64,000 nt of DNA, taken from Paramacrobiotus metropolitanus. Lineage: Eukaryota > Tardigrada > Eutardigrada > Parachela > Macrobiotidae. The stretch spans positions 124,001 to 188,000 of the forward strand of contig NW_026570240.1 of assembly GCF_019649055.1 (NCBI RefSeq), in the 5' to 3' direction. The notes beneath the pieces were generated by a model, which searched no databases, had not been told where the DNA came from, and saw only the letters and a list, made by a program, of their open reading frames with translations. Of this stretch, positions 29,610 through 62,339 are shown piece after piece. Positions within the stretch are counted from its first letter, which is position 1, and every line of letters begins with the position of its first letter. Position numbers and translations under genes: made by a program.

Positions 29610-31984
29610 ATGCCCTCCAAAGGTAGGAAAGGCGGTCGCAGTCGAGCCAAGGGAAAAGCTAAACCATCACCCAAATCCTCACCGAAGCCATCGAGGAAAC
29701 CTATTGCAAAGTCTCCGAAATCTCCCAAGTCGCCGAAGGCGCGGTCCACTGGAAGGAAGAAAGCAGATAAAGCTGCTCCGACGAAGAAGGCATCGCCAGC
29801 CAGAAGTGAACATGAGCCGCCCGCGAGGACTGCGTCCCCTCCGTCGCCCGATACAATCAAGGTAGCCTACGTGCTTTTCCATTTTCGGAATTTTGGTTTT
29901 TATTGTAATGTTTTTGTGATCGCTTCGTACCAGTCAGACATGAAACTCATCGTGCGCGGATTATAGAATACAGTCAATAGTCTGGAAGAAGTTTTCGGGC
30001 GTCGCGGCCCGAAATTCCTGCACAAAGCCTTGACAACGTGTCAGGATCCGCAGGAAATGCTGCAACAGTTCCGCGACGAAGAAGGCGTGCTGGTGCCCAC
30101 GCTGAAGCCCGCCGTGCAGTTGTTGGACCTCCTGGACGTTAGTCGTCTGCATTTCCATACGCGTTCCGCGGAGCAGCTGCGGCAGGAGCTGATCGAGCGC
30201 ATCAGTTCCGTAGCGAAGGATGCCAAAAAAGACACGAATAAAAAGCGACTGGATGAGTTGCTGGACAAATGTTTCGCTGGATTGAATCTCCCCCTGGTGC
30301 GACCTGTCGTACTGCACCTCCTCCGCAATCTGGAGACCGTCGATGCCAAGTATAAAAAGGAAATTATGAACAATAAAGAACTGTATGATGTGTGCGCGAT
30401 TCCGTTGCGAAGACAGTTTTGGATGGAGCGGAAGGATTTGTTTGAGTCCGAAGCGCTGCCGCTGGTGGAGGGATACGTTAGTAACCGCGTGCAGAGCATG
30501 TTCGAGGTTAATAACAATAACAGCCTCTACACTATCGCAGGTAAGATTTGGCTGCAGTTTTTAGTGGGGAAGTGGTGTTCCTGGTACCTCAGTATCCGAA
30601 TATCAGTGACAACAATAAGTTTTTTGTGCGTCGTTTTCGTCTTTTTTTAAATTTATTTTCTGCGTGCACGTTACCATCCTTAACTTTCCTTGACGGTGAG
30701 CTCCCTGTGTACAGTTGGTAATTATTCCTTACTGGTGCGCTGAAGAATTATTTTTCCAGGTAATATTCGGCGGCAAGATACAAACCTCGTGCGACTAGTG
30801 GAAATTGTGGGTGATCAGACTGCACTGTACAAATCCGTCAACGATCTCATAAGAAAACGATATTCCGAATCACTGAGTCCGCACTACGGCACGCTTCGAC
30901 TCGATTTTCTGATTATTATGCATGACCGCCAACCGCAGATGATCGCCTCTGCCGACAGTTTGGCTTATAAATTCGCATTTTGCATCGACGCGGGAGTTCG
31001 GGCGCGACACCTGGACGTCAAGCGCAGCAAGGATATTGTCGGCGTGGTCGACACTTTAAAGAAGAAGAATCCCCTTTTGTGCGACTTGGCTATGATGCTA
31101 AGTGATCCACAGATCGTCTATTTCAACGCCACCAGTGCTGTGCGCATGGTTCAGGCTGTGGTCAACCAGGAAGTGCTGCCGAGAGATAACAACATGTTGC
31201 TCTTTTTCCTTAGGCTTCTGGGTATCGGCATCCTTGCCGGTGATTTTGTTACCGATAAAGTAAACAAGGAGCCGAAGCTTCCCATAGATATTGCCTGTGA
31301 ATTTGTGCCTCGGCTGTGTAGTGTGATGGTCTCTTTGGCTGCCAAGAAGCTGAATAGTGAAAAGGTGAAGCTGGCTAAGGTCGGTGTGGATGTGTTGGTG
31401 CCCATGCTGGAGAAGGATCCTGTTAGCGTGTGGCTGATTATACAGTGGATAGCGTATCTGTTGCGGCAGAATGACTGGGACACAGTCATCGGTTTGATCC
31501 GCTTGTTTCCTCGGTTTGTCGGGCAGATGGCCACCAAAGAGGACCATATTATGCACAACATGGTCTCCGTTATGTCGGTGACCTATGCCTCTCAGGAACA
31601 GCGTTGGCCGACAAGTTTTGCCGACTGTGTCTTCTATGAATACTTCCAGCTTCGCACGGCGGGACCACGGGAAGTCAAACACGCGCTACGGTTGCTGTAT
31701 TCCGTGTACGCCAAACTGGAGCCGCAGTATCGGGATGAACTGTTATCGTATGCAGATGCACACGTGAGTTTTGATCTTCGATTGCGTTTTTATTTTTGTT
31801 TTGGTTTGGCAAAATAAACCGTTTTGCTTGGTAGATGGACGCTGACGATGTGAAATCGCTGTACACCGTAGTCAAGGCGCGTATTGCTACGTCGGTGCCT
31901 GTGTCTTCATTTCGAGCCGAACATCCATCCACACCGTATGCCTCCCTAGAATTTGCATTTCCAGCAATGACGCCTAGGCAATAG
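29610..31984 (+). CDS. NELFB: Negative elongation factor B (COBRA1)
   Basis: NELF-B is the scaffold subunit of the NELF complex, which with DSIF holds RNA polymerase II in promoter-proximal pausing. Four exons give 659 aa: 29610-29861, 29967-30540, 30760-31763, 31835-31984. Human NELF-B is about 580 aa. Conserved blocks start in exon 2: LTTCQDPQEMLQQF, LLDLLDVSRLHFH, LRQELIERIS, KKRLDELLDKCF, KELYDVCAIPLRRQFW, VNQEVLPRDN, LLFFLRLLGIG and KHALRLLYSVYAKLEP. The whole of exon 1 (84 codons) is a Lys/Ser/Pro/Arg-rich segment with SPK repeats, resembling a histone H1 tail; it has no counterpart in human NELF-B as I recall it. An alternative would be translation from a Met within exon 2, but I see no good internal start near the conserved beginning. 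It is convergent with DUSP10. Confidence 0.93.
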
Positions 31985-34241: not shown

Positions 34242-37200
34242 TCACAGGCTGGTTTCTATGCTGAAAATCTTTTGCTGCTTTCCTTGACTTCCGCTTGGAC
34301 TGGGTAAAACCATGTCCGACGATGATCCACTGATTCCCTTTGACTTTTTCAGATCTTTTTCGTACTGCATTAACTGTCCCATAAAGTTGAAATTTGGCGA
34401 TATCACAGATCTTTTGGTTTTAACCAAGTTGTAGGCTTCGTTCATGGAGATGCCTAAATGATGCATCACGTAAGCGACAACAATGGTTGCCGATCGTGAC
34501 ACACCGGCCTGACAATGAATCAGTATGGAGCTGTTGGATTTGCGGGCTTCTTCTGCAAAACAGAGAGCTGTGTGCCGTTTGCTACTCTAGGTTCCGTTGA
34601 ATGAAAAGCGTTAAAACATATCGCAACAAACACTAGAAACTAATGATATTTTATCAGGTCCCTAAACACTTTATAGTTAGTGGCTAGTCTAATATTCGAG
34701 ATAGTACTTGCACTACCTAGCATCTCAAACCCATATTTATACATAAAGTACATTTCAAATACATAAAGTACATTTCAAATTTCAAATACATAAAGTACAT
34801 TTCAAATTTCAAATACATAAAGTACATTTCAATTACATAAAGTACATTTATACATAAAGTACATTTCAAATTTCGATTGAACTTTCGGTCAGTTTCAGAA
34901 TATTATTATGGGTACTTAAGTCTACCTATGAAGTCGAATGCTTCGTTGAAGTGCTGCAGCAAATTCTGTTGTCCACTGTCACAAGCAGAAACTCTTTTGT
35001 AGCGAATGCCGCTTTCTTCGAAATGGCACGGTGCATGCGACGTGACGTTGAGGATATGTTTGATATTCCATGCCGATAAAAGTTGCATATTCATTGCATC
35101 GTTCTCATTTCCCAGGAACAAAAAGGGTAAAATCTGCGAAGCTTCCACTTTCTCCAGTTCCACGCTGTCTTGAGGGGATTTGGTGGGGCTTGTCAGTGAA
35201 CCACAGAACCGATTGGCAGTTGCCGTTTTCATTGTCAAATTTTCACATAAATCCGGAAACTGATGGCAGAAGTCCGCAAAACCACCTATACGATAACATA
35301 GCGAGCTGTATATTGCGATAATCGATCACTCCACGTATAGCTACACTCTGTACTCGCTAAAGAGCAGAATTCGCCATGCATGTACAGTACATACCGATAC
35401 AATTAATAAATACTGCGAGCATTTAAAAAAATTTTCAGATAATGTACAGCACGAAAAATGTGCAACCGTTCAAAACCTCAATAAACCGGTCTGCTAATTA
35501 ACCACAAGAATCGAGTGCAAATAAGGAAGAGAAGCAAAGCAACGACCGCGGAAAAGGAAGCAAGGATTCCACGGCCTCACGGTAAACACATTAGGATATC
35601 AAAAGCTTTTACTACGATCGAAGTACATACAAGTATAACGTGTATTAATTACGTTGTGCTAGTAAACGTAAAACCCATTCACCATGCGGCGCGCCGCAGA
35701 CTGTCAGAAGTTATTAACGTCTAGTTGCATCTAGTTTACCATCTTTGTCGTATCTCACGAGCGATGACATATTATGGGATTTTAGCACTTGCATAGCATT
35801 CTCATGCACAAGTTATGCTTTATTTAGGTTCGTATCTCTGAGTCATGATTAACCAAAATATCACGCCCAGCTACACACATCTAAATATAAATTGTACGAA
35901 ATATGTTTTGTTTGCATACATGTCTCGGAAGCTGAGCATGGACACAGAATTATGTAGCATACATATATGTACAGAACCATATATAGTATTATATACAATA
36001 AACGATTTCGAAATCCGGTTTATCCCTGCATTTAGATAATTGCTGCTTTTGGGAAGCACTCCATAAAACTATCACCCATTAGTAACATATCTAAAAGTAA
36101 CTAGTTGAATTACCGGTATAATTAGCACAACATCCGCCTGCAGAGGAAGAGCAATTTACATGCTGTTGGAAAAGTCTCTGGGGACTGAACGCAGATAAAC
36201 TCAGTAATTTAAGCCGTTTATCCCGAATTAATACGGTGATACACATAGAACTGGCTACACAGGTATGGCCACATATTCTGCAGATCATGTGGCACAGATC
36301 TGGTACTATGCCAGCAAGTTCAATGAATATAATCGCGCTACGGCAATTTTGGCAATCACAAAAGGGCATAAACAGCGCAAAATACAATGAACTGAATGAG
36401 TCATCTAAACAAGCAACCCATATTGACGAAATGTCGTGGCAATACATATTTGTACACGCATTTATCTGCGCAAGACGCATTAAAGGTCAAATAAAGTCGA
36501 TCATAAATAACCAAATCAATAAAACACTAAAAAACTTCTTCACGTTATGCAGAATACAGATGTTCCTAGAAAAAGCATTAGATATACATATGTAAAAAAA
36601 TTACTGAAACCATTTACAATTTCCTGTTTTTTGACACATTGTGCAGAGCAAACAACTGCTTAATGCTGCGGCTTACCTATTAGCACAGCCGGGTCTTTAC
36701 CATCGCTTTTCAAGGAGCTTAAAAGAAGGTGGATCGGATTAAATGAGGGCAAGCTAGTCCAATCCATAGTATTATCATCGTAGACCACGATCTCTCGTAG
36801 AAAACGTTTTCTATACTTGGCTTTGGCATTGGCATCCTTCGTTGCAATAATATCACAAAGTTTGCTATTTTGGAGTCGTCGACGCAACACCCGATCACCG
36901 ATGTTCACATTCACCGCACCGCAAATATGATTCATCCGATACTTGAATTCCGGTCGGCAGTCGATTATTAAGTAAGGTTTCTTCGTTTGCATCTGTATGC
37001 GCTTGGCCAGTTCCTCAGGTAGCAGTGCCTTGGGGCCGGTTGGCACGCGACTCGGACTGGCCACAACACTGTTGGCCGAACCGAGCAGCGACGGCGTGGA
37101 CTCATTGGTCGGTGTACCGGCCACTGGGCCCTGCAGCGTTAAACTCTGCAGGATTTCCAGATGGGTCGACGGACTGGCCGGTGTGTTGGCGGCCGACAGA

Positions 37201-37382
37201 CTGGGTGTGCGTGTTTTGATGCAGAAGGAGGGAGTGGACACGAGGGTGGGCGTTGAAGCTGCCGAATGCGACCATGGCGGATTGCCCGGTGTATCTAGGC
37301 TGAGCTTCAAGCCCATACGTAAACGCCGTTCGTGGAACATCACCGTGCTGGGATAGTCCGGGTAGCTTTCCGTAAACAGCAT
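34242..37382 (-). CDS. DUSP10: Dual-specificity MAP kinase phosphatase, DUSP10/MKP-5 type
   Basis: The enzyme dephosphorylates Thr and Tyr of stress MAP kinases (JNK/p38 class for MKP-5). Three exons give 458 aa (human 482): 37382-36677, 35285-34926, 34552-34242. Exon 1 has a Ser/Thr/Pro-rich N-terminus, then a rhodanese/CH2 domain ([16 protein letters not shown]) with the kinase-interaction motif RRRLQ and EIVVYDDNT. Exon 2 carries the MKP-5 linker (DLCENL) and [13 protein letters not shown], the start of the catalytic domain. Exon 3 carries the active site HCQAGVSRS with nucleophile Cys369, and [14 protein letters not shown]. The rhodanese sequence, especially [10 protein letters not shown], matches DUSP10 better than other MKPs. 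An acceptor ends 28 nt before the ATG, and two upstream ATGs lie within 12 nt (see findings). Intron 1 is 1.4 kb. Confidence 0.94.
34741..34877. repeat. Minisatellite in DUSP10 intron 2
   Basis: Five to six irregular copies of a 20-27 bp unit built from acataaagtacatttcaaat, with variable ttcaaat insertions, lie between the catalytic exons. AT-rich, no coding content. Confidence 0.9.
35286..36676 (-). other. Intron 1 of DUSP10
   Basis: 1,391 bp between the rhodanese and phosphatase-domain exons. ORFs of about 120 codons on both strands at 36091-36595 overlap each other and show no recognisable domain; I consider them chance. Confidence 0.6.
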
Positions 37383-38805
37383 ACTTCATACCATACTGCT
37401 AGCGTGCCTCCTCTGCAAAGAATGACCCAACATGAGGATAACAAATGGCGGTTGTGAGAGGTGATGTTTTTATGTGCAATTTGTCACAAATAGGTGAGAC
37501 GGTGTGAGCCGACTGATTAACGGCACGGCTGGACTATTCCCACTTGCACAGTGGAAACACAGCAAGATGCCGATTGATCTACGCATCGGCAGCTGCAGCG
37601 CACGGTACATACAATCAATGAATAAATCAATTATAAACGGAACTCCCATGCATCATACGTCAGCAGAACGAGGTTCGTCCCGAGACCAGCTCTTGAAAAA
37701 CTTCCTGTGGCTGGCGATTAGTGAGCTTGTTATTAGCCGCCCTGTGCATGCTGGCGGAATGTAGCAATCATAATGACCAGAACGATCAAAAGATTTTGCT
37801 CCAGGTCCAATACAGACAACTGGTAGAGGTAACACGTGAAACAATTCGATACAGCGTTTTACCACGACGCACTTATTTACAAAATGAGCAGCTTAGTTAA
37901 GATCTCAGTTGGTCGACATCGTGGCGGTTCGCACAGAGGACATTCAGGTGATGAATAATCGCTTTAAAAGTCGCCATGTAAGCATTACTCACTTATTACC
38001 CGCATGATACGTATAGCAAGATATCTCCGAAGTACATTTTAGCAGAAATGAATATCTATACAACATTAGGAATTGTACTTGTGGTTCACTGCAGTAGTGG
38101 CTGCTGATGCCTAAAAGCTGAAAGCGCCTGTTCTAATCGCGTATGCGTAGCCGGTATAGTATACATATTCATGACAGCACTCGTACCTAATGTAACAAAA
38201 TTTTACAAACCAAAAATACTGAAGTAAAATATGTGAGTAATATCTATATTAGTAAAAAGTAAGAGATCACGTTATGTTAAAAAAAACTGTGCAATCCTTA
38301 TCATTTGGTTCCTTTCCGGAACAGCTGCTAAGTCCTTATCTGCATAAAGAAATCAGCAGCAACAGTACGAAGGAAATCTATAATTCTATGATTGTATCGC
38401 TGCATCGCACAGTGTATATAGAATGTATCATTATTGTCCGTAGCGTACTGTCAACTGCGTAATTATCATGTACTTCGGTACTCCTAAAAAGGAAAAAAAC
38501 CCCTCAGATTCTCGTAGTTAAGGCGTTATAAATTAGGTCGAGCATAAAGTCCAACAGTAACGTTGATTTCCTTGTACTAAGAAAATTAAGAACATACAAC
38601 GAAATCAGAATGGCTGACCGGGTCGCAGACATACATTAACCGGACATTTTGCTGGTCAAAGACAGTTACTGTACCATTTCTTGAGAAGACATCGTAATCC
38701 ACACCGCGAACGTAATTTCGAGCAGCTACGTTCACGATGTTTTTTGCAACAAAGCTGGGGATCCTAAGTACCGTTGGCCAACACTGAACGCTTCCTGATG
38801 TTCTC

Positions 38806-39195: not shown

Positions 39196-40469
39196 GCTTG
39201 TGTACTGTACTTAACTGTACTCGTATAGCCGGCTATGACATCCATATTAAATTTATCACTGTATTTGATATTATGAGCATATTGTTACTAACTTTATTAT
39301 CAAAATGTGTCTTAATTTCCGTTAAAAGTATCAACACTGTAAAGATTTCTAAAAACTTTATAAAATACAGCTGGTTATGGTTTAGGTCATGGCGCGCGTA
39401 TGCTTTGGAATAACCTTTGCATTCATTTTTATTCCTTACCGTTAGTAGTTATTGATAATACTTTCCAGCTCTGTTTCACGATTTAAGAAACAGTAAAACA
39501 AAATATTGCAAATACATTCGATTCGTAATAATTCCATAATATTCGTTTCTCCATAATATTCCATAATATTCAATATTATACATATATCGAAATGTTGAAA
39601 CTGTCAATTATATGGTTAATTCAACTGAATTGTGTGTATATCTCCTCTCCGTTATAAACTGCGCGGCGCTCCTAATTTTTTTTTAATTTTTGCGGACCAT
39701 GAGTTACGTATCCGCTGCTTTTCATACTATGCTCACTATTGTGTAACGATTTACCAAAATTTATACCAGTAGTAAATTTACTTGCGACTGGAACGGCAAA
39801 GCTGTAGGATGAGTCATCCTGGAATTTGGACCGTGCGTTCTGCAGTGCCTATATCGATCCTGGCTCGGCTTTCCTACACCCATAATCACTGCTGCTGTTC
39901 TGGACGTCATGTACGATTGCATATCGAACTATGTTTCCATGTACGCAGAACTAATAGCGCATCGGTGAGCTGCTTTAGATTTAGCATGTACCAGTTCGTT
40001 TGCTTCTTCCAAATCTTTTGTCCTCAAATGTCGGTAGTTGTGCGTTAACGTTGTGTTATTGTTCACTATCTATGAACTAAAATTTGCTTTACGGGATCAT
40101 TCCTCCTATTCCCGTTCATGCTCAAAGATTCTTTCTCTAGATTAACAGAACATAATTCCCCAAAGAAGGCACGACATGCGAAATAGCACAGAATTTAGAT
40201 ATGGTGACATATACAACACGTAGCACAAATATACAGTAATAATTGAATCAGTTCTGCTCAAACATGCATAGATCTAGAACTACCGGTAAATATGTGTAGC
40301 AAAATTTAGTACAGTGCATTTAATTAGTTTCCGATGACGAATTTTTCGAAGTTTTTAAATCATCAAAAAATGGAAAGATAGCCGGTTGCACAGCGACATC
40401 GATAAACAAAGGCGGTCGAATAACCGAAAAATTTCGTCTAATTCGCCGCCGGTGGTGCTGTACCAATTA

Positions 40470-40880
40470 TAGTAGATGCTGCATTTCCTCGCTAAATTCC
40501 GACGCTGATCCGTTAACGCAAAATGCTTTTACTTCGCCAGTTTTCTGCTGTATCGTCTTCCCTAGTACGTTCGCCATCCGGGTGGACTCATGGTCAAGTC
40601 CAAATGTTCCATAGGTCTCGAAGCCCAGCAGCGAGAACCAATAGTCATGGGAGCCGAGCGGGACAAGACCAAGAAATATCGCAACATCACCAATGATTAT
40701 TGGTTCTCGCCGCTGGGCTTCGAGACCCACTGGAACAGTCAGACCTGGGTCTACCCGGATGGTAAACGTGCTAGGGAAGTCGCTCCTGCAGGAAACTGAC
40801 GAAGTACGAGCAACTGGATCAGCATCGAAATCTAAAGTAGCGAGGAAACGCAGCAAATCAAGTACTACTTGCTATAAAGG
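40470..40880. mobile_element. Palindromic relic of a reverse-transcriptase-type element (3' tail)
   Basis: Two roughly 190-bp arms in inverted orientation (about 40470-40655 and 40685-40880) meet around a short centre near 40670. Both arms, read outward, encode versions of DYWFSPLGFETHGT, then NVLGK, Q(E/K)T(D/G)E and SAS. The rightward arm is preceded by ERDKTKKYRNIT. This resembles the short C-terminal region after the reverse transcriptase in many invertebrate non-LTR-type ORFs (RDK.KKY..., ET.GTWGP..., GK...TGE). That assignment is by memory of the pattern. Stops and frame breaks show it is dead. No RT catalytic core is present. Confidence 0.5.
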
Positions 40881-41271
40881 CCGTAATAAGTACAGTAATT
40901 GATTGCGAGCCAGTTTGCGGCTGTGATTCCCTAGTGGTCTGCACTGTGGTCAGTTTTTTCAGCGCTTAATTAGGAGTATTTTTACATGTTAAGGAGACAT
41001 AGTATTTTCACATAGCCAGAAACGCTGTGTTTATGCTGCTTTAGTGCATGGTCCAGGAACTACGAGTCTACGCGTGATAATATATGATATTATAGGAAGT
41101 GCAGCACCAGAGTATCTAATTCGAGAATGATGTTATGTATGTAGATCAGATGTTATTAAAATCTGAAACCCTAATATCACATTTCATTTTATATACCACG
41201 AAAAATGCATGATACAATTTATACTTGTTATTCGTTGACCTTAGTAGAAGCAGTAATGCTCGGAAAAGGTA

Positions 41272-41404
41272 CTGTAGCCGCCCGCACAAGTTGCTCCACT
41301 GGCAGATCCGGCCGTTGCCTTTATTCACACAGCTGAACAGCGAGCAATGTGGGTGTAACACTGTATACCTCACTCTGTGGGGCAACTTGTGCGGGCGGCT
41401 ACAG
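41272..41404. mobile_element. Miniature inverted-repeat element with TA flanks
   Basis: Perfect 24-bp inverted repeats at 41271-41294 and 41382-41405 (core ctgtagccgcccgcacaag) enclose about 87 bp. Both ends are flanked by TA (gg-TA-ctg at left, cag-TA-gtt at right), as expected of a TA-targeting (Tc1/mariner-like) miniature element. The interior has no coding capacity. The GC-rich arms stand out from the AT-rich surroundings. Confidence 0.7.
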
Positions 41405-41610
41405 TAGTTTTATTTTACGCTTCTTCGTAAAACACAATTAGTGGGGAGACACTGAGTTTGACCTTTTATATATAGATAGCAGTATTTAAATTCGGTTTTA
41501 TTTGTCATGAAACGACGGCAATATACAAAAATTATGCTCCCACAAATAAAAATTTTTGAACATTTGTGGAGCTGGGTACTCGCACAACTTGCACAACGCA
41601 TATATCTACG

Positions 41611-44600
41611 TCAGCTTTCAGACGTTGATGGCTCGGTGGTGCTAAATTCCTGCCGAAGACCATTGGTAGGCAATCTTTTCTTAAGGCTGTCTGTGGCCTC
41701 TGGTTGCGGCTTTCCGGCAATGAATTTGTATTTAACCATGGCTTTGCGGAATTTTACCATACCGGCGGAATTGTGCGGCTGCTGTTTTTGATTGTTTTTC
41801 ACTAGAATCGTAATATTCCCATCCAGTGTTTCCATGACCATTGTAGTCGATCCCCCAAACTCATCCCGTACCATACTGGAGCTGTCACTGCGATCGGACA
41901 GTGACGACGACACATCCAGGCGATTGCGCTTTAGTAGTGGCAACAATGCACGAAGATTTTGAATACGTTCATGAGCCGGCGTGGGAATGCGATCTCTTTC
42001 CCGTTCCGCTTTCATGAATCGCTCTACCGTAATTTCGTCATCGACATAGAATTCCGGAAGGGACATTAGCAGTTCTTCGCTTATCTTGATGCGCGGCACA
42101 ACGGGAATTTGCACTTGAATTTCCAGTTTATCCATATCGGTGTCCAGTTCGACAAGATCTCGTTTATAAACGCGGTTTTGAATTTCCGCCCGCGTGAAGC
42201 GTTCTCGGGGGTCTTCGACGGCCAGACGCCTGGTGTTGCATTCCACCTTTAGTCCACTGCTCGACAGCACGGGATCGTCTCCGCTGTTTTTCAAAACGAC
42301 CATAATCTGAAATTAACAGAATTTAGGTGCTAAAACAGGCAAAATTGATTATTTTCTCGCAATGTTGTTTAGTAATATTGCTCTTTAGTAATATTGTTTA
42401 ATAATGATGTTCTCGAGAAATTGAAGAAATGAAATATCTATATTTGGTTGCAGTTACTTTTTTATTATGATTTAATTCAGCATAGTATGGATATAGAGTG
42501 AAAATATCGGCAGTTTGCTCGTAGTTACATATACGTTAATTATAACTGAAAGTTCAACCAACTTCTACACTATTCTGAATTTGAATTCTATAGCCCAATA
42601 TATTGTACACCAGTGATCACAGTTAATTATAATATTATTTGCCGTGATTTTCCGGGTGGTATATAAAACGTGGCCAAGCACATACATGGTTGTTCTGGCT
42701 AAAACATATTAAATCACGCACCTTGGGTAGAAAAAGGAAGCACAGAGTGCCTGACGTGGTGGCAATTGTTAGTCCGGAAACCAGGATAAATCTTAAAGTG
42801 TGCTGCTCAACAATGATCTGAGTCAAGGCAAAGGCAATGATTGAGCAAATTACCACATTATAAATGCTTAATCCCACAGCTTGAGAATCGTTCAGGGCGG
42901 GAATCTGTAACAATATTCGTATCATTTTAATTGCGCAAGCAAAAATTGCTGATCGCCTCAACATCTTAGCACAATCACGATGTTCTTAACATCTTAACAC
43001 AAGCATACATCAATTCAGGTATTAACTGCAATAAGTAATGTAAATGCTAAACTCGTGAACAACGCACGATACCTTGACATGTCGTGTCTCAAAGGTTAAG
43101 AAAATGCCGGCAAGAAGCATAAGGCCTTTGGAAATGTAAATCGCTGGCAACCACAGCGTCGTCATGTATTCACTTGAGCAAACTTCCAATTTCCGCCGCA
43201 AAACCACATCCGGATTGTTGGCGAGGGTCTGCTCACCTATGTGCATAAGCTCCACTTGGATAGGATCGGAAACAAACCATATAAAGAGAAAAATGCAGTC
43301 GATGGTGAACAGGCATCCAACTCCACAAAGCAGCTGATTGTCACGTAGGAGCTGTGAAAAACAGTTGCAACTGTGCTCAATATTGGTGCGCACAGTACAT
43401 AGGTACGGGTAGAAGTAAGTAGGTAATATGCAAGTCTAGCCGGTTAGTTCGTGACTGATGTGATTTATCCAAAGTATTAAGCATTATTATTATATTATAG
43501 TTATTACGATTAATATTAATAGTACCCTAACAATACCAAATATCTAAAACCATACCAATATTTTAAGATGGTAGAAAATGAAACACGTTACAAAATACTG
43601 GTAAAGCCGTGCAACGTCGACTTAGAACAAATTTCGCCTGCGGATTGTAACACGCTTTATTTTTATATAAATTCTATAAAAGTCTGACAGGTACGTACGT
43701 TCGTACCGTTCGTTCTTACGTTCATATCTGCATACCTTGCTTTTGATCACTCCTCCAGATGCTTTCCGAAAAATTTGATGAACGCGAAACGTTTTCAAGA
43801 ACAAGGAACCGAAAGCCACTGAGAAGCCCGTTGAAAATAAAAAAATTCGAACCTATCAAATAGAAGTTTTATAAATTTATTAAATTCAACTCGAACGTAT
43901 AAGTTGAAATGTTCTGAAAATGACATTCTTTTGGTTTATCATTGTTATTTAGCAACCTTTTGAGTCGCATCAAAAATATGAGTTCCTTCTTTGCAGACTA
44001 TGACACCAGCCATTAGGTATGTAATTAAGATTGCAAAACCATTACCACCTGCAAATGCTAACGCAGATTATGACTTTAATTAAATTAGTACAGGTATGCG
44101 TGAGCACAAATAAATAAAACTAACAATATCTTATTCAGTCAAATGCACTTATGACTTGCGACACTGCGGTCCATCTTTTATGCATAAGTGCAATAATCAT
44201 CTACCTGACAAATTGACTTCATAATGGAACTTTCACCCGTGACACCATAATCGATTCCAAGGGATATTACCGAAGCATAAACCAAACAGCAACCAAGAGC
44301 CGTGGTGTTGTTTAGTTTCGGGGAAGAGAGCTTGATAAACCTGAAAACGTATGAATACAAAGTACTATTTCAACATGCGCTACAGAGCCAATATGCATAC
44401 AAAACGCGCAATTTATATGCAGAATGTGGTAATAACGTCATGGATGCCATGTGCAAATGTGTACTCACTTTTGAGAATGAAACAAAATATTAAAGCATAA
44501 AAAAGATAATGCCAGCAATATTCCCAACAAAGCAATGGAACCGATGATGTAAAGAACTTCTCGGGTCACGGTTTCGATTACCGGCAACACAACGCGTCTG

Positions 44601-47600
44601 TCTGCCGGAACACGGGCACCGGATGCTGCAAATGGAATCAAAGATCACCACAGCTGCTAATTTTTTCGACCAATTCCTTCTCCTCTCCAGGAGCAGTTTG
44701 AACAACTGCTGTGCAGAAAAATGCATGCATTAACTGCAGATGCGTTTATAAATAATGTTATTACAATACGTAAACCGAGTGCAACGCATATATGTATATA
44801 TATACTTATATATACTTATATATGTATACTTATATAGTATATAAGTATACATGAACAATCGGACGCCATGAAACAGCGAAATCAGATGTGGATTATAAGC
44901 GCAGAAAGAGCTTTGTTGCACCGTATGAACAGCAATACTAATCCGAATCTTTGGTCAGGTTCTTACTGTAATGCAGCTGCTGTGTATACATATCTGAGTA
45001 TTTCTTACCAATCCAAGAAATTTGCTCGCAAATACTGCAGTTGAAATGAAGAAAATTATCCTCTGGGTTAAAAAATGCGATAGTTTTCATTTCGCCAACT
45101 CGGTGCTGCCGGAATACTGACACGCCCACTCGATCAGACCCATAGAAACGAATTGGTCCGGAAATACCATCAAAATCCAAGCGCGATAATGTATCCTTAA
45201 AAATCTCCGTCATTTCTCGATTTTTATAACTAAAATTCTCCAGTCTCAATCCTTTACGATCAAGTGTACTTCGCGATTCTTGTATCATAAAAGCAAAGGT
45301 CCAGACTGCATCGAACGCCAGTGCCTGCGGCGAATAAGAGGCTCCCGCTTTCTGGAGATCGTTCTGCACCACGGTGAACTGATCGTACCGCTAGATGGAA
45401 AAAGAGCTTGATTTAATTATCCGATAATTTATTGACTGAGATTAAACGCGAATTCCTTGGTTGCGTACAATGCCAGCTGAAGAAGTCCGGTTATTCATGA
45501 GAGAATCGCTTGTGGTGACTGTGATGTAACCTGCATAGGGATATTGAAAGTGTGACCTTTTACTGCATTGGTTACTCAAACTGGGAACAAACAACACGTA
45601 CCTTCGATAGCGGTTTCCATTTGCTCTACAGTGCAAGTGGTGCTGTTGTCGCGAAGTCGCCACCAAAAACGTGGATACGAACCAGGAATAAACCATACAT
45701 ATCGTTCTCCGTAAAGTCCTAAATGGTATGCTTCGCAAAACATCCTTTTCGCAAAATCCAACGAGAATGCACCAAATATTATGCGCACATCTTTTTCCTG
45801 TAAATTACTTACTTGAGTATGGCGTACATTTTTATCGTTACGGTGCAAGGATTGCATGTATGTGTTTAAACCGCTCAACTGCTTACAAAAAATTGCAGTA
45901 TAAGCGTTAATTTCCGCTTTGTGCTCTCTACACCGATAATGCTCTAACTAGACGGAGCAAAAATAGTCAAACATTATTCAAAACGAAATTTTCACAACGA
46001 ATAATTTTTGTCTCTGGCATATTTTGAATTAATTGACACTGAGTATGTGCTTGTGATTGTATTTGCGCCAACTACCTTAAAAATCCTCAGCTGTTCTTGT
46101 ATTTTGTTGATGCCGATGCTTCCGGTGGCGCGGAACGTGATGTTGTATCCGGCTAACGTTCTCACAATTTCATTCATGGCCAGGGCGTACGCTTCCTGAT
46201 TTTCATTGATTGCCGCCGCGAAGCGCCATCCGAAATGATGGAGAAAGGCTCTTCGGGCTTCGTTATGGGATTGATCAGGTGCCACCGTACGGAAAAAATA
46301 ACGAAAATGCTTACGATCACTGAGTGCCGGTGAAGTAGCACCAGCGGAGATCTGTCAAGCATAAAAAATCAATTTATGTGTGTACACGGCGTGCGGTCGT
46401 GTGTTTTAGCGGTTAATTGACTGATGAGAACTAACCTGCAGCTGAGCAAAATAAGGCGTTGCACGGGCCAGTGGAATAGCGACTTCATCATGGGACGGTC
46501 CCAGGAGGAAATGAATTTTTGGTCCAAAGAAAAGCGCTCGGTAGTATGCGTTGATGCCGTGACCGACACTGCACTACACAACAAAGCGGGATACACCTCA
46601 TCATCATTCCCAGTTGTTTAAAATGCTCAATTACTACAGAGACACCGCTAACAACTTCCTATGTACTACTAACAGTTCTTATGTAAATGCTCTTCTGTAA
46701 CTTCGTGTAACCGTAATCATGCAATATAATATTCCCACACGAAGTGCAAGATAATACTATGCAGACATTAGTAACCATCACGTTTTTCTAAGTTATTAGT
46801 TTAGGCTGACGCCAGCCCCCACAATTTCTGAAATGATAAAATCGATATTCCTTCTGCAGTCGTCGGTTTTATTAATTACGTAAATAACAAAAAAAGATTT
46901 TTTAAAAAAATTACCCGTTCTTGAGAAATCGTGAGCTGAAAATCGATAACATTAACGTTGAAAACGTAAAATAAAGGGACTGAATCAAGCACGCCATAAA
47001 ACGAAGTTATAGGTACGTACTGTTTGTTGGTAATCGTAATCAAAACACACTAATCATTTCAAAATTCTTCAGTTGGCAATCTTGGCATGGACTAGCGACA
47101 CCTTCTTATAAGGTGTCGCTAGCGAATATAGCAAGTGAAAATTTTGTCTAGGTGAGATTTCTGGTGACAGCAAATAGCCCTTTCAAAGAATCTACATATT
47201 GTAATTTCCGACCACACATTTCAAGGGTACAGATATTAGCTATACACTGAGTTATATTACACCTATAAGGCTATAACACAATCATCCATCCAACTACAAT
47301 ACATTAATAGTGAAACGAAAGAATAATTTTTAAAAATGCAAACAACCAAGTCAAGGAGTCTTCTAGGTTTGATTGCCAATGCGACCTTTCTCCGAACACT
47401 GTATAATGAGTATAACGACATAGTACTAAACACAAACTCACGCTCTTCAAATCAATAAACGTTTTTTGGTCAATCAAAAAGTTTTGTTAATCTCGATTGA
47501 TGGATTTAAACGCTCGTTTGAATGCGATCAATTGCTAATTATCGTGCAGCACTCGTATACTGGTATACGGTAATGGTATACGAGGAAAAGCGTAAAGTAA

Positions 47601-52400: not shown

Positions 52401-54495
52401 GCCTTTAAAAAAGCCTTAATTAGATCGCTTATTAAATTTTCAGCATTGTTCTAAAAATTATAAAGTTAGACGAAATAAACTAATCTCTCCTACACGCAGT
52501 AAGTTAAAGTAACCTGCCTCAATAATATGGGCATGCACCGCATAGTTTTGCACAACTGCAGCCAACATTTTTTCCGTGGATCCATCTTCCAGAGTCAACA
52601 TTTGCAGCTTCTGCTATGTTTTCTGATTTGCCATACTTCGCTTTCTAACGTAAACAAAAATCTTTCTTTGACCCCTTAAATATACATCATATAAGCCGCA
52701 TGTGCGACCATTCTGCACGTTTGTGAAATCGATTAGTTGCTAACAATGCGCTCAAAAGCATGACATGCAGTATGATCGGCGTTAAAGTCGCAAATGGCTC
52801 ATTTAATAAGTATGTGAATATAGAATATACTATTCAACTAAAACAATAGGCCCAGGCTTAGCAGTATCTTAAATCGAAGTACAAAATCTTTTATCTGCTA
52901 AAATCCCGCTCTTGCTTTTGTATGAGCGAAAAATCAGGCGTTCGCAAGACCACAATAATTATAATATTTAACCACTCGTAGAGTACGTTGCCGTTTATTC
53001 CATAGATATCTATGTATATATCTATGTGCCCTGCTGACCAGCGTACGTATATAATAATGAATTAATAGTTCATATAACACAATGATCCCCTTCTCGTTTA
53101 TTACTCAGCGTTCACCCTGTACGTGTTTACATCAAACGCAGAAAATTATTAAATTAACTAATTGTAAATTTACTAATGATCGTATTTCGTTGTGTACAGT
53201 ATTGTCAGTTAACCTTTAATATTAAAGCGAATATGGGCTTCCGGCAGTTCCGACGGCGTTTGACCTTTAAGCTGGTCTTTAACTATCTCTGTATGATATT
53301 TCCTTCTTGAAGCCTCGGTGGTCAACAATTTTACATCTTTCAGTTTTACAGTACAAATGTACAAATATACGTAATTGCCTTTTAGAACTAAAAAAACACC
53401 CATCTTGAGGACATCTTTTGGATGAAGAAGACATGAACGTTTTTTTTCGGATCGAACCAAAAATCCGTTTGTGTATGATGAATTCCTTATAAATAACGAA
53501 AACAAATTCATATGGCTGCATGAACTCACTAACCGCATATCTCAGCTCTCCCTCCGATTTTTCTGTTTTTTCTAATTTTGCAGGAGCATAAGGACTGATA
53601 CGAAATTACGAATATAATTATTATCTTACTGTTAGCCTGTTATAGTCTGTTGCTGATGTTAGGGGGAGACAGTGGATGGCCAGTAACAACACATGTGACA
53701 CATGCAATTACAATACACAGGTGACAACGACAACGTTCGGGGTGTTTGTTGATTTTTAGAAACCCAGATTCACCGCAAGGGTCGTCAACGCAAGGGTTAC
53801 ATTACCGGGTGGCCGAACGCAATGGGCCTCTCCGTTTTCGGTTTATTTCTCATCAACCACTTATCGCATCGCGAACTGTTAGTTCATACATACTCATTCC
53901 AGAGATAATTTTATTGACTACTCAAAATAACAAAACTTGTTTTAGGAAAATAAACCGTGCTTGCTAAAAATAATGCCAACAGAAATTGTGCCACAGGTGC
54001 TGTTTAGCAAACAGCCACATTTTAGATTACAGCTTGCTATAACGAGTAAGCAGAATGGCCATCGCGAACATAGGTTTTTATTTGTTAGCATATACAGTTT
54101 TGAGCTCGCCACTGTATTCCTTGATTTCTCCGAAAGCACCAGATTGAGTGAGCAAACTCTTCGCACTCTCTACCCTAAGTGCGCGGCTGTGCGCGGCTGT
54201 GCGCCATTTAAATAATGTCTTTGTCCAAACCAAGCTTCCCGCTTCCGTCTTCTGATCCCCATCTGTTGTACGGAAGTCGACCATTCAGAAAATGGTTGGC
54301 AAAGGGCAGTCATAAGATTCTGCTTAGCCGTACAAAAATATAGTTTTGTGGTCGCTTACGGTTGGCATTTATGGAAAGCATTCCTGTTATGAAACTTCAG
54401 GGATTTACTAAAATTTTCGCGATTTTCGTACAGGTTGCACCGTTGCAGTGTGCGGAAAAGGCAGACGTCACAGTCGTCACTGGCATCCGTGACTC
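49468..54495. other. Gene-poor region upstream of the GABA-B-like receptor
   Basis: 5 kb without a recognisable coding exon, RNA gene or element. The left end should carry the receptor's leader exon and promoter (acceptor-like tttcccag about 50 nt before the start). Frames of 65-125 codons near 49993-50810 and 53209-53538 show no family or splice structure. A short duplication of gcgcggctgt lies at 54181-54200. Confidence 0.5.
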
Positions 54496-54504
54496 ATGGT
54501 TTGG

Positions 54505-54652
54505 ACGCGTGTCTGTGCTCTGATCCAATCCTGCTGGAGGGTTGGGATCTGAGTTATTCACCTAATTCGGTTCATTCTGTGCACTTAACGTCTCGTGCTC
54601 AGTACAGCAATTACAATTCCACTCTCGCATGAAATCCATTGGAAATTGTAGC
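54505..54652 (+). repeat. Left terminal inverted repeat of the transposon
   Basis: Starts ACGCGTGTCTGTGCTCTGAT and pairs with 57569-57424 read in reverse complement. High identity for 72 bp, then patchy (shared atccattggaa near the inner end). Confidence 0.85.
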
Positions 54653-55136
54653 TGTGCCGCGTCTATGTTAGTGATGCAACAAGGTAAAATCAAAGTTTTT
54701 TATTTCGGATCTCAACAAATAATATCATCGCCGACTGCTTAATCAAATTTTTGAATTATAATTGTAAATGCGCATTTTCAGATTAGTTCTTATTTAAGTG
54801 TGAGGAACCTTCATGTGTACAGCGAAACTTATACACTGATCCACAAATTTGCATACACTGTTGCACTACTTCATATAAATGTTTATTGAATGTTTATTTT
54901 ACCATTACTGTGCTATAATATTTCACGAGTAAACAATTTATACAAGGCAACCATTATATTTATACATTAACGCACAGTATTTATAAAAGTTATGCTACGC
55001 AATCAAAATTTATCCCTGACGGTTCTTTTCCAAACCAATTAAACGGACATTGCAAATCGCGCCCGCACAAAATAAAAGTCAGAAATTCCAAAATGAGCTT
55101 GAAAACCCAAATCTAACTTACAACCTCCAGTCAAGT

Positions 55137-56904
55137 AAAACTTTTGACGATACTAATGTGTGCTCTCGGGTTAAGACTTTGATCTGGACTAACAAGATTA
55201 CTAAGGTTTATACTCGGTTATAAACTAAAACAGCACTCTGGTTAAGACTCTGGTTAAAAAATACGGTCAACAGACGAATCAACTGTTTTGTTCGGCTTTA
55301 GCTTAACCCCTTCGACAAACTGACTCGATCTTTTTCTGCAAATCTTCTTCGAACTATAACTCAAATAAACTTTCGCATTGAAAATGTCTTCATTTCTTTT
55401 TTTATCTTCGTTTTTTTTAATTAAGAATACTGAAATCAACCTTTTCGTTGAAAATGCTTTTAGTAACATCTACGCAGGGAAGGCGCATGATATACGTACA
55501 TTTCGGAATAAGAACATAAGGGCATAAACTCTTCCGCATATACCAATTTTAGCATAGCACAATTTGGCTTAAAAAACAATTTTAACAAAGCTTGAAAAGT
55601 TAAAAAACATACTGGATTAAAAAAAAAACTAAAGCCAGCCAAAAAAGCTAATAATCTTATGAACACCACGAAAATATATTCAGAAAACACAAGAAAAGCT
55701 AACAAAAACAAGTAAAATATAAAAAAACTTAGGAAAACATTCTAATGAGATTATAGATTAGAGCGTAAACAAAAAAGACAGTAGCATGCCGAATGTCTGT
55801 GTAGCGATTCAGCAAAATGTTTTTGTACCAAATTTTTCTCATGCCAAAGCGTCCGCAAAAATTGTTTTTCATAAGCATTTTGCAAAAAATAATTATGTGT
55901 AGCGAAACAGTTACGATTCCTGAATTATTGAATGATATTTGGTGTACAAATAAAGATGTTCGTGTTAGCTTTAACGAGAGTGTTAACCCGAGTACTAATG
56001 CTAGTTTTGATCAACGTATAAACTTGAGTGGTGATACTAGTTCAAAGCATGGTCTTAACCCGAGTGCTCATAGTAGTGTTGGCAAAAGTTTCAGACCAAC
56101 GGAATAATTGCATATAATACCTATAATGCGTTCTAAAACAATTTTGCAACAATTTCCATTACATTTGAAACGCTCTGCTACTCGGCAGTGGAAGTATATA
56201 GTAGCGTAGCGCTAGCCTCTTTTATTTCCAACATCAGCTAAAAACAAAAAAATATATTTTTTTCGAAGTATTTAACCAGAAAAATGGTATGCTAAGATAA
56301 CTTTTATTTTCTGCTTTTTTTTCTTAATAATCTTTCTCAATTGAAATATAACTGTTTGGTCAACGCATATTTAGTGTTTCAAGACAACAGATTTAGCAAA
56401 CGTGCAGGATGAAAAATTGTTGTGAAAAATGACGCAAAATTAAATGTGCAAACAATTCAAAACTCAGGCTTTAAATCCTCGTCATTAGTAATGTCGTATA
56501 TTTTTTGCAATTACGTCATTTCGTCATTTTCAGTTTCTAGTATTCCTTTGGTTTGCCAAAAAACAGATATTACAAAATAAAATGTATAATACCATTAAAT
56601 TTTCTTTGAATTTTTAAATTTGAAGTTCTGTTATAGTGCCTAACTTCTGTTATAGTGTATTTCTGGCTGAATAAACTTCACTGGTGAACATAATAATAAA
56701 TTCAATTAGGTTTAAAACATTTTGTGGACGGAGGAATTTTTGAGTTTTTGGGAGAAATAACCAGAGTTCGCAAACACTAAGCTATCTGAGGTTTGAAAAC
56801 CTGAGTATAAATATTAGTTTTATCAGAGTATTATCAGAATTACTGATCTTAGTTTTAAGCGTAGTCTTAACCCGAGTGTTCATCTTAGTTCTGTCAAAAG
56901 TTTC
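55137..56904. repeat. Dispersed about 40-bp repeat units inside the transposon
   Basis: A unit of the form gtcttaacccgag...ttagt...gtcaaaagttt occurs inverted at 55137-55176 and direct at 56052-56091 and 56864-56904. Shorter degenerate copies (gtcttaaccagagtgct and similar) lie between. The units are spaced irregularly and include both orientations. Confidence 0.7.
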
Positions 56905-57023
56905 TGCTGACAAAAAATATGTTTTTAACAGTGTTTTATGCTTAAAATTTTAGCTATTTGCAAACGTGTCCTGGCAAGCCGAAGCATATTACAAATGGAA
57001 TGAGGTGTGCTTTATCATCTTGA

Positions 57024-57147
57024 TTTCACTACCGCTGTTGTAGGACTGGGGAGCATCATAATGAGCCTTTCCAGCAATATGTCCAACAATATTTCACTAC
57101 CGCTGTTGTAGGACAGTGAGCCTTTCAGCAAATGTCCAACAATACTT
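57024..57147. repeat. Imperfect tandem duplication inside the transposon
   Basis: Two copies of tttcactaccgctgttgtag, each followed by gagcctttc.agcaa.atgtccaacaata, at about 57024-57091 and 57092-57147. The second copy carries small deletions. Confidence 0.85.
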
Positions 57148-57423
57148 AAGTTTTCAGCAAAGAAATACGAAACCTTGTGGCTCAAGATCCACAAGCTACT
57201 GTTTCCATGTCGCTGAATTTTCATAAGGAACTTGTTTTACGATATTGCTGCAGGTGCCAGTATTTCATATTATATTTTAGTTTTCCCGTGGTAAATTGGA
57301 ACCTTTCGGATATCAGTGGATGTAAACATAAATTTTATGAAAAAGAACATTGTGATAACTTGATGACTTTTTTTAAACATTGATTACCTGATTGCGAAAA
57401 CCGAATGCAACACACCAAGAAAC

Positions 57424-57569
57424 CACAAATTCCAATGGATGTCGAGACGTGTACAGCTGTAAACACTGCTACTGAGCGCGAGACGCAAAGTGCGTAAAAT
57501 GAACCGAATTAAGTGAATAACTCAGATCCCAACCCTCCAGCAGGATTGGATCAGAGCACAGGCACGCGT
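57424..57569 (-). repeat. Right terminal inverted repeat of the transposon
   Basis: Reverse complement begins ACGCGTGCCTGTGCTCTGAT, matching the left end with two mismatches in 72 bp. Confidence 0.85.
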
Positions 57570-57578
57570 ATGGTTTGG

Positions 57579-57921
57579 GCCTGTTGCGTCATCTTGTTGA
57601 TAAGTTACCAAAGCGTTTTTGGCAAACCGTACGCTTCTAACCGCGCACATGAGACTTGTTGCGTATTCGTGCTGTAGCTGAGCTTTTCTACTGTGTGCGT
57701 AGGGCAGTAAAGAGACGATCTTACACATCGGAAATCGGCGGACCGGCATGCCATGTTGAATGCTTTTCGTCATCTGCGAGTCCGCATGGGCACTCTAAAA
57801 CCCCGTGCTTCACCATCTCAGTCGAGCAGTATATAAACGGAATCGATGCGAAAGTTTGTTTGTCCTGGGCCGCTGCATCAGCCTACCAGGTCCACATTTC
57901 TGGAACAAAAGCGTTTCCGGG
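57579..57921. other. Short region between transposon and TFIIA start
   Basis: 343 bp of higher GC than its surroundings, presumably containing the TFIIA promoter and 5' leader. No TATA box or other element is clear. The 89-codon frame at 57656-57925 ends over the proposed start and is probably spurious. Confidence 0.45.
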
Positions 57922-60900
57922 ATGAGTTTACATATAGTGGTAAGTTAGCTTATTAGGTTGTAATGAAGAATCAAATTGTGTAGAGCTGAAACATTTTGAA
58001 AAGGCTTTTCACGTAGGTCGAATGCAATATTTGTTTCGTCGCTGCAAAGTTAATAATGACGTTGACTATAGTTGTTCGCTGTACTGAGAATGACTTGTGG
58101 CATCCTGAGCACTGGGAAGTGCAAACGGTGCTCGTTTATACCTTTATCTTGTGATCAAACAGACAATCTCATTTTTTACTAAACTCAGTTAGGTTTAATT
58201 TTACTGTTCAAAATTTAAACTGTTGGTGCTGTTTTTACCTGCTGCTCTTTTGCTCTTTAATTTTACTGTTTCTTTTACTGTTTGATTTCTGTTTTTACTG
58301 TCTTATTTTTTACTGAACTTAGTTTAGTTTAATTTTACAGTTTTTCACTGTTTACACTTGACGTTTAATGGAATGGGTTTACTTTTAGAATTTTTGGTTG
58401 TTTTCTCAGTATGTTTGGGGCTGTTCACATAGCATAAAGTCATAAGACTGACAAAGTTGATCGATTGTTATTTGGGAAGATATGGATAGTACTTGCAAAG
58501 TTTCAGTCTGTAATGGAAAAGACAAGAAATTCACCAGTGTTGATGACTGTATTGTTAAATTTTAATTACTTTATTACAGCCGTAGTGTTTAAGACTCGTT
58601 CCGTCCAGCCGCACTCCAGCGTTCTTGCAGTGTAATGGATGTTGAAATTTGAATGCGGTATTATTCTTGGCACGCCGTATTTTCATTATAGTTTATGTTT
58701 GCAACTTTGAATGAATGTTTGAATAATTTTGTTGCATACTGCGTTATCAGAGTGCAATCACAAACAAACACAAATTAAAATTTGTTTAAGCTACAGATTC
58801 AGTACTCTCCTGATTTGGTTTTAGCGACGAAAAGATTCTTTAAAAATGTAATTTAGCATGAGTGTGGATGACTGTGTATTATGGAGATGCATCGGTAATA
58901 ATAATAAGCAGTACTACAATAATTCTTGTAATCGTGCATAAAATGAAGGAATGCTCCCAATTAGTGCGAGACGAGACCGTACCGCTGATCGTATTGTTTT
59001 ATTTATATGAGTGATATAACTGATTTATGCATGTGGATATCTGTACGAGTGCTTCGGCTGATTCATGCGCATTGACAGTAGAGTTATGTTTGTCTGGTTA
59101 CCTGCGTCTTAACAGTGCGCGTTTTCAGAGAAAATTTTACCAAGATGTTGTGGAACAGCTCTTTGAAGAGAGTCGGATTTTCTGGGAAGAAGAGGGTCTG
59201 GACGAATCCTCCATGACGGATCTCAAGCAGGCAGGTCACAAGTGCTTACACTTTTTTGAAGAGTTTTCTGTATACACTAATCTGTATAGTATGACACTGT
59301 GACAATTGCCAGATTTGGGAAGCTAAACTTATGGAGAATGGCATGGACATCAATGCTGATAGCACCGCAGCGGATATCGAATACGCAACAACAAAGACTT
59401 CCGGTCGAGGCAGTCGGGCAAAAAACCAAACCAGCGTGCAAAGCACGGCGGCAGCTGGTCACTCTGCATTATCGAAATCAATTGCGCATCAACAGCAGCA
59501 GTCTGCACAGCCCGCGCAAGCGCAGCAGCAGCCACAGGGCCCTCAACAGCCAGCCGTGCAACAGCAGCAGCAGCAACCCCCGGCTCAGCTGACGCAGTCT
59601 CAACCGGCGCAACCCTCTCAATTTCAACACCATCCCACCCAGCCCGTGAATTCCCAGGGGCCGCCGCCACAACCGCAGCCGCGTACCATTAATGTCCAGA
59701 CCATTCAGAATTCCCAACTGAACCTGACCCCGACGGCACAAATGGTCAGTGCCAAAACGGGTCACAATATGGCAGCTGCTGGCCAACAGGCCGCTTTCAA
59801 TCTCCTCACGACGTCCTACTCAGGCCCCGTGGTGCATCTTTCCTCTTCGACAGTTCCTACTAATGTTGCTGCACTTTCCAATGCAATTCGCCAGCAGCAG
59901 CAACAGCAGCAGCAGCAGAACCTCAATCCTACATTTCTCACTGTCAACGGTACAGCCGCACAATTACTGTTTGCCAATCCACACGCTCAGTATCGATCAG
60001 GTGAGTGACTCGGAGAGATTATTTTTTCGCTGGTACTATCCTTTTTAAATTGTCGCAGAAGATTCAAAATTTTTGTGGGAGGGTTGTGTAACAGCGCAGC
60101 AGCAACAAAACAACACGTTGCTTGTTGGCTGTTGCATAAGGTGTTACTGTAAAAACATTTTGTTTACAGTGCAGTTAGGACTAATGCATTGAAAAAATGC
60201 GCTAGCAGTCAGTGATGTGTGCAAGTGGCAACTGGCGAGAGAGTGAGAAGCCTGTTCAGGTTTTCTACTGTGATGAAAAGTCATTGTCAGTGTCTGACTG
60301 ATGGTTAAGTAACGTAACATCCGCTTATTTTGACTGTAAACGGACATTTTATGCAAGATGTTAGGGCTGCTGTAATTGTTAAATCGGAGCCGGTAGAAAG
60401 AAGCTTTGGTTAAATACTTCAGCATGAGGAGAAACTAGTTTGTCGTCCTGATTACCGAAGTGAAAGAAAAGACATCTTAGCCGGAGGCTACATTTCGTTT
60501 TCTCTGGGTCAGTAAAATTTTTGTTGTGACCAATGGCTTGGCGTATTGTTGGCCGTCTGGTTGTGGGACATTAATTATCAGTATTAGATTGAGCTAGCGT
60601 TTTCTAAATTTACGCTCCTAGAGTCCGGAGCAAGAATTCAAAGGTTTTTTCATGTTGGAACACTATGTTGTGCAAAACCTGTTAATTATCATCAGTTGAA
60701 CAGAACTTAAAAAAAGCCGTACACTGGTGCTGTCCAAAAACATCACGTACAAGTACAAGTTATTCTGATATAATGTATTGTGTAAACATTATATGTACTG
60801 TGGTCTAGTATATTAAGTCAACTTATTAACTAACTGAGATAACTGACGAGGTAATAGGCAGCTTTTTCTATTTTTGTATTGCACAACTTACGTTTCCACT

Positions 60901-62339
60901 TGCATGAAAAATATGAAAACAGTAGTTACTTGCTCATGACTACGGGTGCAGTCATGAGCAATCACCAACTCAAAGTACTGTTTTCATACTTTTTTATATG
61001 TGTTATGTGTTTGAAACATTGATTCCGCAGCTAATGCTATTAATTAATTTTTGTAGTTTCACAACCCGGTCAGCAGCCGCAGAATCAGATACTTGCATCC
61101 GATGACCAGCGTCTGCAGAGCGTAATACAGCAGCATTCACACAGCAACATTGTGCAACGTGGCCATCAGCCTGCTTCCGCTGCCGTTCAGAACCAGATCA
61201 ATGTTCATTCCATCCAGCAAAAGGTTCGCCAAGCGGGAATGGCTTCCTTCGGTCAGCAACAGTTTACGCTCAACCAGAATCAGGCTAATGGTAAATTAAG
61301 CTTAGTTAGCAATTGTAGAGCGTATCACCATGTTAATATTATCTTGTTTAATTTTATTTGTAGCAGCAACGGTATTTAGTCTCGCAAATCAGGGCTACCA
61401 ATCTGCCGGACTTGGTCAGCATTCGGTCATCCATGTGGTGGACAGCTCCGGAAATCAGCAGCCTATGAATGTGATAAGTGCGGTTCCCAACAGTGCTATC
61501 AATAATAAATCGGCCGCTGCTGTCGCCGCTGCCGCAGTAGGCGCCAGAAAGCCAGGACAGCCCTTGTCCATACAGTTAGATGGTATGGACGATGATGATG
61601 ATTTTGAGGATCTGAGCGATGATGAACCCAGTCCTCCCAAGTCTAATCGCTCCGTTAAACGATTGAAAACATCTAGGGGAGCCTCTCAGAGGCTGGAAGA
61701 GGTCAGTTTAAACGGCAGTTATGTATTTAAAAGGCTCTGGGATACATGTGTACTGGGGTTCGGCTCGCCTCCGTCGCCGGTCAGAACTCTTTATTGTCCA
61801 AATGCGTAGATGTATGCCTAAAACATATGAATTACTTATTAGGAAGTTTGTTATAAAAGTGATAAATATGTTCGGTTATTCAGCCCGACCTTGATTCTGA
61901 AGATGATGATGATAACGATCCAACAAATGGAGGAGATGCCGTAGATAATGTTGTCGTGTGCCAGTATGAAAAAGTGAGTATTGTATACACCGATAAATTC
62001 TAAAATGCTTTGGCTTTCAGTTGGTGAAAGAAATTGTGTATTTAGAATTTATGGTAATTACCGTCTTTCCGGAATTTATGATCTCCGCATGGACTATGTA
62101 AGTGAAATAATTTAACATGTTGTTACTTTTAGGTGAGCAGAACTCGAAATAAATGGAAACTGCACTTGAAAAGCGGAATGTGCAGCCTAAATGGTAAAAC
62201 TTTTGAAAATGTGCAGCTTCGCGTATTATTGCGTGCTGCGATTTTTTTCTGTAAAACTTACTTTTTCTGATTTTTTTTTGCTTTTATTGCAGGGAGGGAG
62301 TACATTTTTCACAAGGCTGTCGGCGATGCTGAATTTTAA
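57922..62339 (+). CDS. GTF2A1: Transcription initiation factor TFIIA alpha/beta (large subunit)
   Basis: TFIIA stabilises TBP on promoter DNA; the precursor is normally cleaved into alpha and beta. Eight exons give 525 aa: 57922-57939, 59129-59230, 59313-60000, 61057-61290, 61364-61701, 61884-61973, 62133-62193, 62293-62339. The N-terminal helical domain reads RKFYQDVVEQLFEE...EEEGLDESSMTDLKQ|IWEAKLMENG. The middle is a Gln/Pro/Ala-rich linker with (CAG)n polyQ, then an acidic run DDDDDFEDLSDDE. The C-terminal beta-barrel domain is VVVCQYEKVSRTRNKWKLHLK...SLNGREYIFHKAVGDAEF, ending like human. Exon 1 (six codons) is inferred from phase, donor and position, at about 0.6. The intron 59231-59312 uses a GC donor. 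Introns 1 and 3 each exceed 1 kb. Confidence 0.94.
57940..59128 (+). other. Intron 1 of the TFIIA large-subunit gene
   Basis: 1.2 kb. Between about 58180 and 58345 it holds degenerate repeats of tttttactgtt and actNaNttagtttaattttac. No nested gene seen. Confidence 0.6.
60001..61056 (+). other. Intron 3 of the TFIIA large-subunit gene
   Basis: 1.06 kb, containing the foldback sequence at 60912-60990. The 93-codon antisense frame at 60144-60425 is unsupported. Confidence 0.6.
60912..60990. repeat. Two-part foldback sequence in TFIIA intron 3
   Basis: Outer arms tatgaaaacagta and tactgttttcata, and inner arms ttgctcatgact and agtcatgagcaa, are perfectly complementary around an 8-nt loop (acgggtgc). 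The spacers between arms are unequal. It resembles a mini-foldback element or an imperfect RNA hairpin. Confidence 0.8.

Follow-up and report, generated by a model that had tools for sequence, protein, structure and literature searches.

A non-autonomous, probably Mutator-like DNA transposon with exact 9-bp target-site duplications and internal 36-bp arrays in a probable animal genome

The window, as we call the whole 64,000-nucleotide stretch of DNA analysed here, holds several genes that, judged from their sequences, read as animal. From left to right, we recognised a cNMP-binding protein (8705–9238), a CID protein (ORF 18807–20045), NELF-B/COBRA1 (ORFs 29967–30650 and 30744–31817) and a rhodanese-domain protein (ORF 36660–37385), which we take to be Cdc25-like. 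These are followed by a class-C receptor, presumably GABA-B-like, with a 7tm_3 piece at 43025–43435 and an ANF-receptor piece at 45995–46354. Rfam gives no match at gathering thresholds across the window. Repeats are scattered along the same stretch: a tandem array with periods of 20, 27 and 47 bp (34739–34874), a 30-bp inverted repeat of 96.7% identity that is possibly a small hairpin element (41270–41299 and 41377–41406) and a direct repeat pair of 85.7% identity (58167–58342) within a TTTTACTGT-rich stretch. A long imperfect palindrome (40477–40855), with arms at 40477–40651 and 40690–40855 set 38 bp apart, is probably a small foldback or hairpin element separate from the transposon described below; an unsystematic look revealed no target duplication around it, and the minus-strand ORF that covers it (40467–40871) is without a Pfam match.

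To the right of the transposon lies a gene for TFIIA alpha/beta (59102–62336), four separate ORF pieces of which match the profile in order. Profile positions 2–32 match 59102–59230, and positions 349–382, 382–402 and 400–415 fall within 61866–62336. Each piece scores below the Pfam whole-protein cut-off, and the four are convincing together because they are collinear over the whole profile. Two ORFs between the pieces (59295–60008 and 61306–61809) have no Pfam match. As a guess from the letters, a TATATAAA motif at 57830 could be the promoter of this TFIIA-like gene, and an ATG-to-GTAAGT stretch at 57922 is an equally conjectural candidate for a first exon.

Upstream of this TFIIA-like gene, at about 1.5 kb from its first recognised exon, the window contains a real and exactly bounded transposable element of 3065 bp (54505–57569; 34.1% G+C), delimited by a scan for terminal inverted repeats (TIRs) and target-site duplications (TSDs). 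Two identical copies of the nine bases ATGGTTTGG, at 54496–54504 and 57570–57578, flank it directly. The element opens with ACGCGTG and closes with CACGCGT; the left TIR (54505–54649, plus strand) begins with the palindrome ACGCGT, and the right TIR (57425–57569, minus strand) is its inverted match. Compared position by position, the left end and the inverted right end agree at 70 of the outer 72 positions (97%), with mismatches at positions 8 and 58 and the next at 73, and agreement past position 72 drops to 57 of 71 aligned positions (to position 147), giving 84% over the whole of about 145 bp. The contrast between outer and inner parts has a Fisher p of 0.0013, which is optimistic, the break point having been chosen from the preliminary description and the data. 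The exact ends, the 9-bp TSD and the 70 matches in 72 beginning at ACGCGTG had all been claimed in that description, and all hold.

A chance inverted repeat, with no transposon behind it, is a reading to which we give negligible weight. We scored every pair of exact 9-mers lying 80–6000 bp apart in the window (n = 2657) by the inverted matches among the 20 positions just inside the pair; the element's pair reaches 19 of 20, the runner-up 13, and none of the other 2656 exceeds that value. Blastn of the two ends returns the same inverted match over 147 columns (84.4%, E 2e-38), and together these results refute the chance reading. When the control is relaxed to 4-mer duplications (1,746,762 pairs), the palindrome at 40.6 kb equals the score of 19 of 20. 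The right TSD copy also forms the first nine bases (ATG GTT TGG) of a 35-codon ORF (57570–57677) with a hydrophobic, signal-peptide-like start. Since 16 of the 590 ORFs that begin with ATG and reach 30 aa or more on the two strands of the window, this one included, are equally hydrophobic, insertion into a start codon is not favoured.

A precise direct duplication beside inverted ends is the integration product of a DDE transposase, here with a 9-bp stagger. Nine is the natural length of the TSD because an 8-bp reading would leave the ends of the element asymmetric. By itself, a 9-bp TSD is not unique to Mutator-like elements (MULEs), and hAT, P or Merlin might instead be the superfamily to which this non-autonomous element belongs. 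The first two normally make 8-bp TSDs, the very reading that would spoil the symmetry of the ends. Merlin elements, in the portion of their description available, have TSDs of 8 or 9 bp and TIRs of 24–462 bp, ranges into which our element falls, but they conserve a terminal 5′-GG where this element has 5′-AC. We consider membership of any of these superfamilies very unlikely.

Within the left TIR, an imperfect dyad (54518–54553) pairs 11 of 14 positions between arms at TIR positions 14–27 and 36–49 across a loop of 8, a score reached by 4 of 300 dinucleotide shuffles. The dyad is also present in the right TIR, which is not independent of the left, and it is possibly a candidate recognition motif. 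The preliminary description had taken the high identity of the ends and the undecayed duplication as signs of a recent insertion. The two TIRs of one element, in contrast to LTRs, need not be identical at insertion, and identity here falls from the outer to the inner part, so TIR identity does not date the event and the argument for recency is weak. It is more likely that the similarity of the outer parts reflects selection for recognition by a transposase than that it reflects age. The intact TSD amounts to 18 bases without visible difference and no more. A recent insertion is possible.

The interior of the element carries three arrays, each of three 36-bp units. Array A (55141–55248, minus strand) lies 636 bp from the left end, array B (55981–56088, plus strand) occupies the middle, and array C (56793–56900, plus strand), inverted relative to A, lies 669 bp from the right end. 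All nine units are recovered by nhmmer with E values of 2e-7 to 0.0062, which are inflated because the profile was made from the same nine units; blastn between arrays, independent of that profile, aligns them at 72–74% over 108–122 columns (E about 1e-12 to 1e-11). Both comparisons substantiate the internal repeat units first noted in the preliminary description. In the rest of the window, we found no convincing further unit (best nhmmer E 0.53, against 3.7 in a reversed-window control). A perfect 13-mer, CTTAACCCGAGTG, at 32671–32683 matches the internal repeat motif and was set aside, as the similarity does not extend. The five strongest lags per array include 12 bp in A and C, 24 bp in B and C and 47–48 bp in all three, and the 36-bp unit may have been derived from a 12-bp repeat.

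Arrays A and C resemble each other in inverted orientation (score 47; maximum of 100 shuffles, 36). Between the TIRs and these arrays no inverted similarity is seen (score 20, reached by 89 of 100 shuffles), which rules out ends and arrays as a single long decayed TIR. Nor do the arrays behave as a coding repeat: the ORF at 55805–56107, in which residues recur, is without a Pfam match, and the presence of the unit in both orientations makes a coding role unlikely. These symmetric arrays are the only unusual trait of the element, and repeats of a similar type are known from related elements. It is conceivable that the element is the first known member of a so far undescribed family of animal transposons, and that the inverted three-unit blocks some 640–670 bp from the ends would serve in it, alongside the TIRs, as a second, far-internal site for transposase binding or silencing, an idea that we hold to be highly improbable.

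Of the stop-to-stop ORFs that lie wholly inside the element, 16 reach 50 aa or more; all were scanned against Pfam (E up to 1), and none matches a transposase domain. The preliminary description had likewise recognised no transposase. The best match among them is to ATG19 (E 0.0057) and three others have E values of 0.079 to 0.6, all four below their respective cut-offs. Five ORFs cross an element end; the two of these that were scanned, and one ORF in the right flank, have no Pfam match. The longest ORF of the element has 100 aa against a shuffle mean of 96, with 37 of 100 dinucleotide shuffles as long or longer. We take the element to be non-autonomous on both grounds, the lack of a Pfam transposase in the internal ORFs and a longest ORF at the shuffle level. 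At 3065 bp, it has the size of an autonomous animal MULE (Muta1, 3198 bp, in the excerpt available of PMC5225508), as would suit a formerly autonomous copy that has decayed, or an element that has captured part of a host gene, as opposed to a derivative without any coding past. However, the internal ORFs retain no Pfam trace of a transposase, a scan that would reveal host sequence only where Pfam knows it, and the G+C content of the core is 32.7%, compared with 34.1% for the element and 40.6% for the window. Such an origin appears quite unlikely.

The anatomy of the element, that is, its TSD and TIR lengths, terminal palindrome and short repeats, fits the animal Mutator-like elements Muta1, Phantom, Rehavkus, Tm1 and Tetris, as far as the available parts of their descriptions allow comparison. 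MULEs make TSDs of 8–11 bp and commonly have long TIRs, 14–500 bp in one survey (PMC6446971, consulted in part); our element has an exact 9-bp TSD and a TIR of 72 bp at 97% or about 145 bp at 84%. Most arthropod MULEs, in the portion of the literature at hand, conserve G/C bases within the first three TIR positions, a tendency rather than a rule, and the terminus ACG, with A as its first base, runs counter to it. One close likeness, by description, is to Muta1 of Aedes aegypti and its derivatives. The available text on Muta1 (PMC5225508) gives a length of 3198 bp, a 145-bp TIR that opens with a 10-bp imperfect palindrome and contains nine 12-bp subterminal repeats, a TSD of 8–9 bp without apparent sequence preference, and more than 300 putative nonautonomous derivatives. 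Our element shares the length of about 3.1 kb, the TIR of about 145 bp with a palindrome at its start, the TSD length and, with the derivatives, the lack of a transposase. Unlike Muta1, it has no tandem repeat that we could find in its TIR, and its 36-bp units lie more than 600 bp inside the ends.

Other Mutator-related elements share some of these traits, here again as partially available accounts describe them. Tm1 of Meloidogyne, a Mutator/Foldback element (PMC3169594), has mostly 9-bp TSDs, composite ends and short repeated motifs, as our element does, and some Tm1 groups are non-coding. Its outer ends are asymmetric (CGGTTAA and CCTACCC), whereas ours are symmetric (ACGCGTG), and its repeats, of about 14 bp, lie within the TIR. 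Tetris/DAIBAM, a foldback element of Drosophila virilis (PMC4079207), makes TSDs of 8–10 bp, has no conserved ORF and carries tandem repeats in inverted arrangement, a likeness that extends to its partner transposase, which has not been found; by contrast, its TIRs reach 1,735 bp and hold repeats of about 220 bp, against a TIR of about 145 bp here. Foldback elements have long, internally repetitive TIRs, and we found no tandem repeat in the TIR of our element.

Rehavkus, used as an outgroup to MULEs (PMC6446971), has 9-bp TSDs and TIRs of 26–400 bp, the 3′ one preceded by a mini-satellite, according to the part of the source available. The TSD of 9 bp, the TIR of 72–145 bp and the internal 36-bp arrays would all agree with placing our element in the Rehavkus group instead of among the Phantom/Muta-type MULEs. 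Against this, the arrays are three in number, lie on both sides as well as in the middle, in inverted and direct orientation, and are short and degenerate; the Pfam-scanned internal ORFs contain no PHD-finger transposase such as Rehavkus has; and a mini-satellite is equally present in Phantom elements of aphids (PMC6446971). A place within Rehavkus seems unlikely to us. The arrays are probably what is left of subterminal or minisatellite repeats like those of many animal MULEs.

We infer, with a probability of roughly 0.75, that the element belongs to the Mutator superfamily, as a non-autonomous DNA transposon of the cut-and-paste type in an animal genome. The preliminary description had left the choice between a non-autonomous Mutator-like element and another with a 9-bp TSD. 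Its first option stands as the best reading, probably Mutator-like on TSD and TIR anatomy, and the label that best suits a single copy without a recognisable transposase is "Mutator-like, sensu lato", the superfamily being assigned from structure. As no transposase is recognised in this copy, the enzyme would have to come from elsewhere. A transposase supplied by an autonomous relative would bind the ends and excise the element, which would then be joined to staggered cuts 9 bp apart, the duplication of ATGGTTTGG arising by gap repair. In each TIR, the outermost 72 bp or so would be the part kept alike for recognition.

Searches in other collections returned no relatives. Exact matches to two TIR 19-mers are absent from viral_contigs (0 and 0); the first 19-mer matches two stretches of genome_contigs, both labelled as bacterial MAGs, a number close to chance, about 1.9 matches being expected in 257 billion bases on both strands. 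The element with its flanks (54400–57700) has no match among 50,697 phage records in a distant blastn search. In the literature as far as its full text could be searched, which is a weak test for so short a sequence, we found neither a description of this element nor ACGCGTG in combination with "terminal inverted repeat".

MULEs are prone to insert in or near genes, according to the accessible part of PMC6446971, and the site upstream of the TFIIA-like gene fits this propensity. The element is otherwise an ordinary one, a further example of a kind already described from many animal genomes; what it adds is an insertion upstream of a basal transcription factor gene and an exactly bounded founder sequence from which the family and its transposase may be traced in the host.
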